From Candidatus Cryptoclostridium obscurum (GTDB lineage: Bacteria > Bacillota > Dehalobacteriia > UBA7702): DNA of 40,111 nt. Both the position numbers and the translations under genes were made by a program. The stretch spans positions 1-40,111 of the forward strand of contig CAJFVQ010000091.1 of the NCBI GenBank assembly GCA_904420535.1, written 5' to 3'. Positions 32,131 to 37,321 of the stretch are shown here, piece by piece; within the stretch, counting starts at the first letter, position 1, and every line of letters starts with the position of its first letter. Under the pieces are notes generated by a model that worked only from the letters and a program-made list of their open reading frames with translations, was not told the origin of the DNA and made no database searches.

Positions 32131-33564
32131 TTACATTGCTTCGATTTTATCCAAAAGTTCGCGGTCAATGCCCTGTTCTACGAAAATATCTTTGATTTTG
32201 TTGAGAACTTCCTGGTCGCAGACGGGGGCTTTTTCCTGATATGCTTCCATCAGTTGGGCATAGCGTTTTTCAATATTCAATTCATATTGATGAGCTGCAT
32301 CTTGAACATTCCCGCGGGAGCAAAGGGTCGGCGCCAAAGGTTCTGTATGGCAATATTGGAAGGTATGATCTTTGGTTAAATATTCGCCATCATGACCGAC
32401 TTCGTCGATGAGATCCAAAGGAATGGTATCTTCATTGATGTCAAATTCTCTGAGATATCTCAATACATAGCGAACCACTTCAAAGTCAGAAATTACTTTT
32501 TCATAGGAAGTGTATGCATATCCATCGAGAATCCCTGCGGAGTGGATAATGAAGTTGACTTCATTCTGGCAACAAGCGAGGAACGTCATATAAGCTTCGA
32601 TTCCTGCCTGGGTATCGACGACTTTAGAATCGGTGAGAGCGCCGCCGGCACGGCTGGGAAGTTGATAGAATTTAGCCATTTGACCAAGGTATCTGTAGCA
32701 CAAAGCACCTTCAGGAGCACCGATGGCAATCTGTCCGGTCTTCATATCTGCTGTGGTAGACTGGGAGCCCATAACTACGGGAGTTCCGGGACGAACCATT
32801 TGAGCCAGAGCAATGGTTGCCAATGCTTCGGCAGTGCTCATGGCGATAGTGCCGGCAAGAGTCACAGGGGATGTAGAACCTGCCATATCACAGGGGGCGA
32901 TGACGATGGGTTGGCCGTATTCGGCAAATTTGATCAATACGTCGGTCATCATGACGTCGAGTTGCAACGGTGTGTTGGCATTGACGATGGTAATCAGATG
33001 AGGATGGCGGAGCAATTCTTCTTTTCCACCGTAAGCTACTTCTGCGGCTTTTAACATGGCATCCATGTATTCTTCTTTCCCGGCGACGCAGAACATGGCT
33101 TTGTCGGAATGGGTGTAGGTAGCATAGAACATGGAAAGGCAGGAAGAAGGAATGGGGACGTCAAAGGGTTGTACCATCAAACCGCCGTCTACATGAAAAT
33201 CATCATTGGCATGGAACAATTTGGCGTAGTTGACGTAATCTTCAATGGTAGCTTGACGTTTGACTCCGTTTTTATCGGCAATGTGGGCACAGCCATAAAG
33301 CGGTGCCGGATTGACATTACTGCCGCCAATTACGATATTATGTTTGGGGTTTCTTGCATACAAGGTAAAGGTAGAGGGGGCTTTTCTGACCCAATACATC
33401 AACTGTTCTTCTGTGAAGTAAGCAACGTTACCTTCGACTCTGATGCCGTGATCTTTTAAAATTTCGATGGCTTTGGGATTATGATACTTCATCCCGGTTC
33501 TTTCCAGCATGCGCATACTGGCTTCATGGATTTTCTGCAATCTTTCTCTGCTTACGTAGTTCAT
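32131..33564 (-). CDS. MttB superfamily methyltransferase (non-pyrrolysine, quaternary amine type)
   Basis: A 477-residue TIM-barrel protein of the trimethylamine methyltransferase MttB family. Visible family patches are RMLERTGMKYHNPKAIEIL near the start, VMGSQSTTADMKTGQIAIGAPE, and PSRAGGALTDSKVVDTQAG. The frame is open with no internal TAG, so it is not the pyrrolysine-containing trimethylamine enzyme. Such proteins (MtgB, MtpB, MtcB) demethylate glycine betaine, proline betaine or carnitine, passing the methyl to a corrinoid protein. It lies 54 bp after a BCCT transporter gene, strongly indicating a betaine-like substrate. No corrinoid protein, RamA or MtqA-type partner is encoded in the window, so partners must lie elsewhere. 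Confidence 0.88.
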   Translation of the reverse strand: MNYVSRERLQKIHEASMRMLERTGMKYHNPKAIEILKDHGIRVEGNVAYFTEEQLMYWVRKAPSTFTLYARNPKHNIVIGGSNVNPAPLYGCAHIADKNGVKRQATIEDYVNYAKLFHANDDFHVDGGLMVQPFDVPIPSSCLSMFYATYTHSDKAMFCVAGKEEYMDAMLKAAEVAYGGKEELLRHPHLITIVNANTPLQLDVMMTDVLIKFAEYGQPIVIAPCDMAGSTSPVTLAGTIAMSTAEALATIALAQMVRPGTPVVMGSQSTTADMKTGQIAIGAPEGALCYRYLGQMAKFYQLPSRAGGALTDSKVVDTQAGIEAYMTFLACCQNEVNFIIHSAGILDGYAYTSYEKVISDFEVVRYVLRYLREFDINEDTIPLDLIDEVGHDGEYLTKDHTFQYCHTEPLAPTLCSRGNVQDAAHQYELNIEKRYAQLMEAYQEKAPVCDQEVLNKIKDIFVEQGIDRELLDKIEAM

Positions 33565-33618: not shown

Positions 33619-35253
33619 TTATTCATTTGCAGCTTTGGCGGGAATCGTAGCTTCGCTTGTTTCTCCGAGCTCTTCTTGAAGTAGTTCGGATTTTTCTTCC
33701 TCTGTTAATGTCATATCATATTTGCTGCGTTGCCGCATGCTCTTAATATAGGATACTGCCATGACCAGCAGTAAGGCCAGAATCGGTAGGCCGCAAACGA
33801 CAGAGGCTGTTTGTAATGCACCGAGACCGCCGCTGAATAACAGGATAAACGCAGTCAATCCAATGATCAGCCCCCAATAAATTTTTAAAATATTAGAGGA
33901 ACTTTTCGATAATGCGCCTTCCTTCAAATATTCGGCCTTGGTACTCATATCGGACAAAGTGAAGACCATCGCATTGACCATTGTGGTAATGGAGATGATG
34001 ATGGCGATAAATACCAGAGCGAACAGGACCGGAGTCAGGGGGAGGTTCTTTACATAGGCAAATAATGCTACAGGAGCACCCCACTCCGCGATGTCGGCGG
34101 CGATATTGGATCCTGCCATTTCCATCTGAATGGAGGAACTGCCGAAGATCCCGAACCAGGCAATGGCAAAAATCGTAGGAGCGATGAGGTTGACCAGAAC
34201 AAATTGGCGAATGGTACGACCTTGGGCCAATTTGATCAAAAAGATTCCTACCACAGGAGCAAAGGACAACCACCAAGCCCAATAAAAGATGGACCAGCTT
34301 CCAACCCATCCTGTTTCCTTGACAGGTTCTAGATAGAAAGATTCAGGAATTAAAAAGGCGAAATATTGGCCAATGGCAGAGGTCGTATTGTTGAGAATAA
34401 ATAAGGTTCCGCCGAAGATAAATGCCCACACCATCAAGGCAAAATAGACGTACATATTAAAATGGCTGGCTGGCTTGATCCCTTTTTGCAGCCCTGTACA
34501 GGCAGTGCTGATGGCTAAAATTAAAACGACGCCGATGAAGAAAATGGATATGAGATTATCGCTGATATTGGTGCCAAATACATAGTTGACGCCGGTACAG
34601 AATTGGGATACCCCAAAACCAAGGGAGGTTCCCATGCCGCCTAAAATGGCGAACATGCAGAGACCGTTGACCAATTTCCCGATGATCCCTTCGCTGCGAT
34701 CACCGATAAGAGGATAAAGGCTAGAGCTGATGCTAAAGCGGCGTTTCCCGTTGAGGATGATAAAGGCACAGCAAAGACCTGCCGCAGTATAAATGGCATA
34801 AGGATGGATTCCCCAATGCAAGAAATTAAATTTTAATGCACCTTCGGCGGCGTCAGCGCTGTAAGGTTCCCAACCGGTAAAGGTCGGTGGTGTGACAAGA
34901 TTATTGATGGGTTCTCCCACGGACCAGTAGACAATGCCAATGGCGATACCCGAGATTAAAGTGACGAAAAACCAACTGACAAAGGACATTGTGGGTTTGG
35001 CGTTTTTTCCACCGAGCTTGATATTTCCGTATTTGCTGAATGCAGCCCAAAAACAAAATGCAATCAGTAAAGAAACCCCGAAAGCGTAAAACCAACTAAA
35101 ATACTTTGTTGTAAAGGAAAAGGCCGCGTTCGACGCGTTACTAAACGCCTCGGGAGCCACTGCTCCAAAAATTACAGCCGCCAGAATCAGTATCGTCGGC
35201 AATAAAAACGCCGGCTTGTCGATGATTCCGAGGACTCCTTTTTTCTTCTCCAT
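33619..35253 (-). CDS. BCCT family betaine/carnitine/choline transporter
   Basis: A 544-residue membrane protein with 12 predicted helices. The BCCT hallmark SIFYWAWWLSFAPVVG followed by GRTIRQFV is intact, and the substrate-region Trp residues are present (WAWW, WSVGEP). The Gly-rich helix reads GGMGTSLGFGVSQF instead of the Na+-coupled BetP form GMGIGLMFYG, hinting at a CaiT-like exchanger or a different ion coupling; that point is uncertain. Long charged N- and C-tails, as in BetP osmosensors, are absent apart from a 35-residue acidic end. It precedes mttB in one transcript under a sigma-54 promoter, so it imports the methyltransferase substrate. Confidence 0.93.
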   Translation of the reverse strand: MEKKKGVLGIIDKPAFLLPTILILAAVIFGAVAPEAFSNASNAAFSFTTKYFSWFYAFGVSLLIAFCFWAAFSKYGNIKLGGKNAKPTMSFVSWFFVTLISGIAIGIVYWSVGEPINNLVTPPTFTGWEPYSADAAEGALKFNFLHWGIHPYAIYTAAGLCCAFIILNGKRRFSISSSLYPLIGDRSEGIIGKLVNGLCMFAILGGMGTSLGFGVSQFCTGVNYVFGTNISDNLISIFFIGVVLILAISTACTGLQKGIKPASHFNMYVYFALMVWAFIFGGTLFILNNTTSAIGQYFAFLIPESFYLEPVKETGWVGSWSIFYWAWWLSFAPVVGIFLIKLAQGRTIRQFVLVNLIAPTIFAIAWFGIFGSSSIQMEMAGSNIAADIAEWGAPVALFAYVKNLPLTPVLFALVFIAIIISITTMVNAMVFTLSDMSTKAEYLKEGALSKSSSNILKIYWGLIIGLTAFILLFSGGLGALQTASVVCGLPILALLLVMAVSYIKSMRQRSKYDMTLTEEEKSELLQEELGETSEATIPAKAANE

Positions 35254-35309
35254 AAAGAATAACCCTCCGTTCTATTTTTTAATCCGCGATCGCTATGTTT
35301 CTTTATAAA

Positions 35310-35324
35310 GCAAGGTTCGTGCCA
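35310..35324 (-). promoter_or_regulatory. Sigma-54 (-24/-12) promoter of the BCCT-mttB operon
   Basis: Reading leftward, TGGCACG-AACC-TTGCT matches the sigma-54 consensus TGGCACG-N4-TTGCW without a mismatch. The predicted start near 35298 leaves a 45-nt leader to the BCCT ATG. Confidence 0.9.
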
Positions 35325-35450
35325 AAATTATTATTTTAGGTTGAATTTTTTTCATTTTGTAAGTTTTAACAATAAAACCCCAGATTAGAGCCGTGAAAAA
35401 ATCAAAAAGTTTTCTTTTGAAAAAATTTTGTTTTGTTGTGGCCAATGGGG

Positions 35451-35492
35451 ATGCAAAAAAAAATTGCATTAATTTTTATCGTGTGATATACT
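35451..35492 (+). promoter_or_regulatory. Possible promoter of the activator with an ATGCAA repeat
   Basis: TTGCAT (35464-35469), 17 bp, TATACT (35487-35492). The -35 is part of an inverted repeat ATGCAA-N7-TTGCAT (35451-35469), which shares the TTGCA core of the 43-bp palindrome downstream. The -35 match is weak. Confidence 0.4.
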
Positions 35493-35585
35493 TTATTTCT
35501 AGAAATGACAAGATTTTATGGCGTATTTTTCAGGCATTTTATTGTCAATCTGTGTATAAATATTTTTCTTGTATTTATAAAAATA

Positions 35586-35628
35586 GATACGCAAATAATT
35601 TTTGCATTGCAAAAATTATTTGCGTATC
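35586..35628. repeat. Perfect 43-bp palindrome upstream of the sigma-54 activator gene
   Basis: Two 21-bp arms (beginning GATACGCAAATAATTT and its complement) surround one T at 35607, with no mismatch. It ends just before the ribosome binding site GGGGTGAG and the ATG at 35642. It may be the enhancer for the BCCT promoter about 260-320 bp away, an autoregulatory operator, or a hairpin in the activator mRNA. Confidence 0.85.
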
Positions 35629-35641
35629 ATGGGGTGAGACG

Positions 35642-37321
35642 ATGAAAATCAGTGATTTAAAATTATTGGAGACAATGCTAAACCAGGCTTTTTACGGTCT
35701 GATTGTTGCAACGGAAATAGGGAATCTGGTTTATGTGAATCATGATATCTCTGATGATTTGGGTATGAATGCCACCGAATTTCTTCGACAATTTCCACCG
35801 TTAAAAACGGAGTGCCCTTTTTTCTTAAAAGATTATATGATTGAAAAAACGAAGTTTCAAAATGGAGATGAAACGTATTACGTTTACTATATTTTTTCAA
35901 ATGATCGGCAGAAGGCGTTGCTAGCCGAAAATATGGGATTGCGAAAAATGCTGGATGAAATTGACAATGGCGTTATCTTTTCCGATCCTGATGGCATTAT
36001 CCGTGTCTATAATCGATCCCATTCTCAGCTGGACGGTTTGGAACAGCAAGAAGTGTTGGGAAAACATCTGAATGATGTTTATTCCAGCGAACAGCATACC
36101 AAGGTTCTTCATTCTAGAAAAGCCATCCATAGCAAATATCATCATTATATTACCGGAGACAACCGGGACATTTTTTGTGTTACTGGTACGTATCCCCTGA
36201 TTCATGAAGTCACTGGTGAAATATTGGGAGTTTATTCCGTGGAACGGGATCTCAGCGTGATTCAGATGCTATTACAAAAAGTGACTCGCTTGGAAGAGGA
36301 AGCTACGAAAAACTCTGTTCAAAACAATACGGCTTATCGGTTTCAAAATATTCTTGGAGAAAGCGCGCTGTTGAAAGAGGCCATCAATAATTCCAAATTA
36401 TTCGCGGCCTCCCAATCTCCAATTTTGATTTATGGAGAAACCGGTACAGGAAAAGAACTTTTTGCCCAAAGCATTCACAATGAGTCTCCCAATTTTAAAG
36501 AACCTTTTGTGGCCATTAATTGCGGCGCTGTTCCGGAAAACCTGATTGAGAGTATGCTATTTGGCAGTGTGAAAGGGGCTTATACCGGTGCCGTAAATCA
36601 GCAGGGGCTTCTTCTCTCGGCAAAACACGGAACGCTGTTTTTAGATGAGATCAATTCTATGCCTTTGGCCATGCAGACAAAGCTTCTCCGGGCACTCCAG
36701 GAACGCAAAGTACGCCCTGTAGGCAGTGATAAAGAACTGCCCATTCATTGCCGCATCATCAGCTCCTGTAATGTAGAACCTGATACCTGCCTTGCAGAAG
36801 GTGTATTCCGTAAAGACCTTTATTATCGTTTGGCTATGATGCGGGTCAATATCCCCCCGTTGCGGCAACGGGGGGATGATCCTGTGCTTCTTGCGAATCA
36901 TTTCGTGAAAAAGTACGTCAATCTTTACCGTAAGAAATTCAACGGTTTTTCCGAGGAATTCCTTGATTTTCTCCGTTCTTATGATTGGCCCGGCAACGTA
37001 CGGGAATTGGAGTTTATTGTAGAGGGATGCGTTGCCATGATGCAGCGGGACGAAACTATGTTAGATGTTCACCATCTCCCCGACAATATTAAAAATAATC
37101 GGAGCAGCAGGATTTCGGTGAAAAAACAAACAGAAGATCGTTGTTCTTCTCTTGCTGAAGCTTTATCTCAATGTGAGCGGGAAACCGTTCTCCAAGCGTT
37201 GGCGTACCGCCATTGGAATATTACCCAGGCAGCAAAGGATTTAAAAATTCATCGACAAAATTTACAGTATCGCATTCGCAAGCTTGGGATTCAGAAAAAT
37301 CTCGAATCCCAAGGCGAATGA
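35642..37321 (+). CDS. Sigma-54 dependent transcriptional activator with PAS domains
   Basis: About 559 residues. N-terminal PAS-like sensor segments (LNQAFYGLIVATEIGNLVYVN at about 14-34 and MLDEIDNGVIFSDPDGIIRVYN at about 104-125) precede an AAA+ domain with Walker A GETGTGKE (near 264), the sigma-54 contact loop GAYTGA (near 313) and Walker B GTLFLDEI. The C-terminal Fis-type helix-turn-helix is WNITQAAKDLKIHRQNLQYRI. I start at ATG 35642 with GGGGTGAG upstream. It diverges from the BCCT-mttB operon, whose promoter is sigma-54 type, so it almost certainly activates it. The PAS ligand may be the amine or its product. Confidence 0.92.
   Translation: MKISDLKLLETMLNQAFYGLIVATEIGNLVYVNHDISDDLGMNATEFLRQFPPLKTECPFFLKDYMIEKTKFQNGDETYYVYYIFSNDRQKALLAENMGLRKMLDEIDNGVIFSDPDGIIRVYNRSHSQLDGLEQQEVLGKHLNDVYSSEQHTKVLHSRKAIHSKYHHYITGDNRDIFCVTGTYPLIHEVTGEILGVYSVERDLSVIQMLLQKVTRLEEEATKNSVQNNTAYRFQNILGESALLKEAINNSKLFAASQSPILIYGETGTGKELFAQSIHNESPNFKEPFVAINCGAVPENLIESMLFGSVKGAYTGAVNQQGLLLSAKHGTLFLDEINSMPLAMQTKLLRALQERKVRPVGSDKELPIHCRIISSCNVEPDTCLAEGVFRKDLYYRLAMMRVNIPPLRQRGDDPVLLANHFVKKYVNLYRKKFNGFSEEFLDFLRSYDWPGNVRELEFIVEGCVAMMQRDETMLDVHHLPDNIKNNRSSRISVKKQTEDRCSSLAEALSQCERETVLQALAYRHWNITQAAKDLKIHRQNLQYRIRKLGIQKNLESQGE

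Follow-up and report, generated by a model that had tools for sequence, protein, structure and literature searches.

The 43-bp perfect palindrome in front of the sigma-54 activator gene most probably consists of tandem sites for this adjacent activator, which together with a third site would form the UAS of the divergent BCCT-mttB operon and probably serve as a self-operator as well (predicted from sequence, with a probability of about 0.85). The reading is based on computed properties: the units themselves, which turn up again at equivalent loci, the fit of the promoter to its consensus, and the domains of the activator. Control through a sigma-54 enhancer is a well-known kind of element; for the motif GCA-N9-TGC in BCCT/mttB operons we found no description in the accessible main texts.

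Tandem units within the palindrome

Two observations of the initial annotation were borne out in the window, i.e., the whole stretch of 40,111 nucleotides analysed here: the arms of the palindrome (35586-35606 and 35608-35628) are complementary at 21/21 positions around one T, and the element lies directly before the ribosome binding site of the activator gene, with 13 bases between its end and the ATG (Table 1). It is the top-scoring inverted repeat of the whole window. With intergenic composition, 5e-9 perfect 21/21 palindromes are expected in the region and about 3e-5 in the 2.1-Mb genome, and when the intergenic region was simulated 3000 times with a first-order Markov model, the longest arm was 12.

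The length of the palindrome, which had been remarked on as unusual for a protein operator, can be accounted for by two putative operators standing side by side. The palindrome splits into two tandem 15-bp near-dyads of the form GCA-N9-TGC, whose centres are 18 bp apart, in the layout GATAC-[GCAAATAATTTTTGC]-ATT-[GCAAAAATTATTTGC]-GTATC. The smaller repeat at 35451-35469, to which attention had also been drawn, is genuine and related to the palindrome, with a third copy of the 15-bp unit sitting inside it. Dyads with a TTGCA core occur at four places with variable spacing.

Table 1. Features of the palindrome region and of the flanking genes in the window
Feature	Position	Strand	Details
MttB-superfamily methyltransferase gene, presumed second gene of target operon	32131..33564	-	PF06253, E 3e-120
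BCCT-family (betaine/carnitine/choline) transporter gene, presumed target	33619..35253	-	PF02028, E 9e-138
Sigma-54 (-24/-12) promoter of BCCT gene	35309..35325	-	TTGGCACGAACCTTGCT; 12/12 specified positions, consensus from PMC6615313
Predicted UAS unit 3	35453..35467		GCAAAAAAAAATTGC; closer to sigma-54 promoter
Perfect palindrome	35586..35628		predicted tandem UAS pair with symmetric GATAC/GTATC flanks
Predicted UAS unit 1	35591..35605		GCAAATAATTTTTGC; GCA-N9-TGC
Predicted UAS unit 2	35609..35623		GCAAAAATTATTTGC; centre 18 bp from unit 1
Likely Shine-Dalgarno sequence of activator gene	35631..35637	+	GGGGTGA
Sigma-54 activator gene	35642..37321	+	PAS, AAA+ sigma-54 interaction domain, Fis-type HTH; 559 aa from ATG 35642

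Adjacent near-dyads are necessarily roughly symmetric; a perfect match of 21 bases that extends five bases into the flanks on each side exceeds that, and the probability of perfect symmetry given the GCA/TGC anchors is about 1e-6. Quasipalindromes are known to be corrected by template switching (PMC7202029), and such repair, or else selection for symmetry, could be the cause. A second perfect palindrome of 27 bp, ATCCCCCCGTTGCGGCAACGGGGGGAT, with arms of 13 around one base, lies within the activator coding sequence (window 36851-36877).

A minus-strand site resembling a terminator was picked up at the palindrome by a consensus scan, with TATTTTTATA following the stem. However, G-C pairs make up only 6/20 of the stem, and the only minus-strand transcription that could end there would be antisense to the activator gene. 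The related proposal of a mobile palindromic repeat predicts further copies, and a pattern search of the genome allowing up to three mismatches over a 33-bp core returned no second one. Few G-C pairs, antisense-only transcription and the single copy led us to reject both readings, which we hold to be extremely improbable.

Predicted enhancer and its target promoter

The activator matches PF00158 (E 3.5e-60) and PF02954 (E 3e-8), and sigma-54 itself is encoded in the same genome (PF04552, E 4.7e-56). According to the mechanism that we infer, dimers of the activator would dock on the three sites through the Fis-type HTH, a signal at the sensory part would cause the bound dimers to assemble into an active AAA+ oligomer, and this oligomer, reaching the sigma-54 promoter by looping, would activate the divergent BCCT and mttB genes, whose products would serve the uptake and demethylation of quaternary amines. 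Our guess from the neighbouring genes is that the inducer might be betaine, carnitine or a relative. The tandem pair lies 282 bp and unit 3 about 135 bp from the promoter; the distance usual between UAS and promoter is given as 100-250 bp in PMC6615313, and that the pair exceeds this range is a point against the enhancer reading.

A second BCCT-mttB pair is present in the genome (G000:C76:14032-17283; L113; L139:4024-7203). Its BCCT protein is 78% identical, and TTGGCATATATTTTGCA at this locus matches a sigma-54 promoter. About 80 bp of the contig remain upstream of this match, so that a UAS of the second pair is unreadable.

A gap of 18 bp separates unit 2 from the ATG of the activator gene, and binding to this unit would therefore probably limit the expression of the activator itself. 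Such negative autoregulation, suggested by the position before the start codon, was measured for SoxR in a similar divergent layout (PMC4941409). The earlier proposal of a self-repression site thus agrees with position and analogy, but the activator promoter on which repression would act was sought and not located: the search for a sigma-70 promoter gave only a weak candidate, TGTATA-17-TATAAA (8/12), ending at 35581. If this candidate were used, the transcript would start at the palindrome, and one could then regard the palindrome, standing as it does right before the start codon, purely as an operator through which the activator or another regulator represses the activator gene, with no part in the activation of the BCCT gene. 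We consider this very unlikely, since the tandem pair is also found before BCCT, mttB and kinase genes without an adjoining activator start, and the third unit is located towards the sigma-54 promoter.

Recurrence of the motif and the folding of the transcript

The proposal that the palindrome is an enhancer for the BCCT promoter, one of those made at the outset, is strongly supported by the comparison of loci at the sequence level. A search of the 2.1-Mb genome for the pattern GCA-N9-TGC-N3-GCA-N9-TGC gave exactly two places, the palindrome and a site just before the closest activator paralogue, which is 52% identical and divergent from another mttB (locus L017). A third unit, GCAACATTATGTTGC, is present at this paralogous locus as well, together with a sigma-54 promoter, TTGGCATGAAGATTGCA, that matches at 12/12 positions. 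The bases between the anchors differ from those of the palindrome, from which it follows that site and spacing are what is conserved.

The paralogous locus also bears on the earlier suggestion of an mRNA hairpin that controls translation. In this reading the leader of the activator mRNA would form a stem of 20 bp, closing 2 nt ahead of the Shine-Dalgarno sequence, and would thereby control translation or decay. Folding energy makes such a hairpin possible (MFE -27.2 kcal/mol, z = -6.3 against shuffles), and two protein sites would not require so complete a symmetry. However, the equivalent stretch before the paralogue folds at background level (z = -0.54, in this one comparison) while its DNA units are kept, elsewhere the units are situated in front of target promoters, and the Shine-Dalgarno sequence falls outside the stem. 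A role mainly as a hairpin is accordingly very improbable in our judgement. Somewhat less improbable, yet still unlikely, is a dual element, in which the DNA would act as a three-site enhancer and self-operator and the RNA as a 20-bp stem that sets how well the activator message is translated or how fast it decays. If true, one sequence would couple the supply of activator to the occupancy of the enhancer, the perfect stem being seen in this lineage only.

The reading as tandem activator sites was pursued further in other Bacillota, where the relatives found are distant homologues; none of the genomes searched belongs to the same genus. With a slightly stricter tandem pattern, matches were obtained in 19/399 genomes of the phylum. 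A correctly placed sigma-54 site with at least 11/12 positions is present at 4/20 match loci examined, i.e., the window, the paralogous locus, L091 (=L135) and L095 (=L136), and all four of these have a third unit; the sigma-54 sites at L088 reach 10/12 only. The genes downstream of the motif at L135 and L136 are again BCCT followed by mttB. A further pattern match, L134, has the pair, the third unit and the sigma-54 promoter in the same layout. The gene behind its 18-bp tandem pair encodes an FGGY-family kinase, probably for glycerol (L134:5128-6870, G161:C16), and the motif is therefore not limited to amine operons.

Moreover, pairs at 17-19 bp were found at loci that had not been selected for the motif, namely L138 (a BCCT operon of the same family), L140 (mttB), L019 and L128. 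Upstream of 57 sigma-54-like sites in loci not selected for the motif, a set biased by the fetching of loci for activators or BCCT genes, the spacing between GCA and TGC peaks at N9, with 26 occurrences vs 2-13 at other spacings and 20 once the window and the paralogue are removed. GCA-N7-TGC stood higher than N9 when the flanks of all activators were first surveyed and was rejected, as it fell to background level when the count was anchored upstream of promoters; the N7 form is how the two boxes of a sigma-54 promoter look when read from the opposite strand (GCAAGGTTCGTGC, 35308-35320). The activators at motif-bearing loci have in common a recognition-helix motif, RQ[NA][LM]Q, which also occurs in some activators where the tandem pair was not found, so that the correspondence is not one to one.

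Relation to known systems

The UAS elements described for sigma-54 activators with a Fis-type HTH in Clostridiales, as given in the accessible part of PMC6615313, resemble the proposed arrangement in having inverted-repeat sites, often several per target, a TTGGCAT-N5-TTGCT-type promoter downstream and an activator gene adjoining the target operon. In contrast to the GCA/TGC anchors found here, fifteen of the groups described there have TGT/ACA half-sites; GCA/TGC may be among the logos of other groups. Betaine and trimethylamine are not mentioned in the accessible portion of that main text. SoxR of Bacillus thuringiensis (soxB/soxR) is likewise a sigma-54 activator of a methylated-amine pathway, encoded divergently from its target, with an AT-rich inverted-repeat UAS and measured negative autoregulation; unlike the three-site arrangement, it uses just one inverted repeat of 11 bp, which has a spacing of 7 bp and lies 54 bp from the start site, and its targets are aerobic sarcosine oxidase genes and not BCCT-mttB (PMC4941409). 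Three repeated dyad sites are known for GcsR of Pseudomonas aeruginosa, where three 18-bp repeats, each bound by the activator, were proposed to seed an oligomer; GcsR differs in being TyrR-like, in its consensus TGTAACG-N4-CGTTCCG and in responding to glycine (PMC4894688). The trimethylamine:corrinoid methyltransferase family (COG5598, MttB) belongs to the predicted sigma-54 regulon of Clostridia, a prediction made at promoter level that mentions no UAS motif, BCCT or betaine in the accessible part of the article (PMC12316311).

What the present comparison adds is a concrete, testable motif, GCA-N9-TGC in tandem at 17-19 bp and usually accompanied by a further copy, for activators whose targets in anaerobic Bacillota, judging from sequence, appear to be the uptake of quaternary amines and their corrinoid-dependent demethylation. 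In some of these genomes MttB-family proteins and activators number in the dozens, few of them matched to one another so far, and the motif could help to assign activators to operons. For strain DCMF, 59 activators (PMC12316311) and 82 MttB-superfamily genes (PMC9768040) have been reported, and over 80 activator candidates were counted in genome G010 (6,441,270 bases, one contig). In the genome that contains the window, only 2.1 Mb in size, there are 27 matches to the activator (some of them partial or on one gene), a sigma-54 activator set that is dense for so small a genome.
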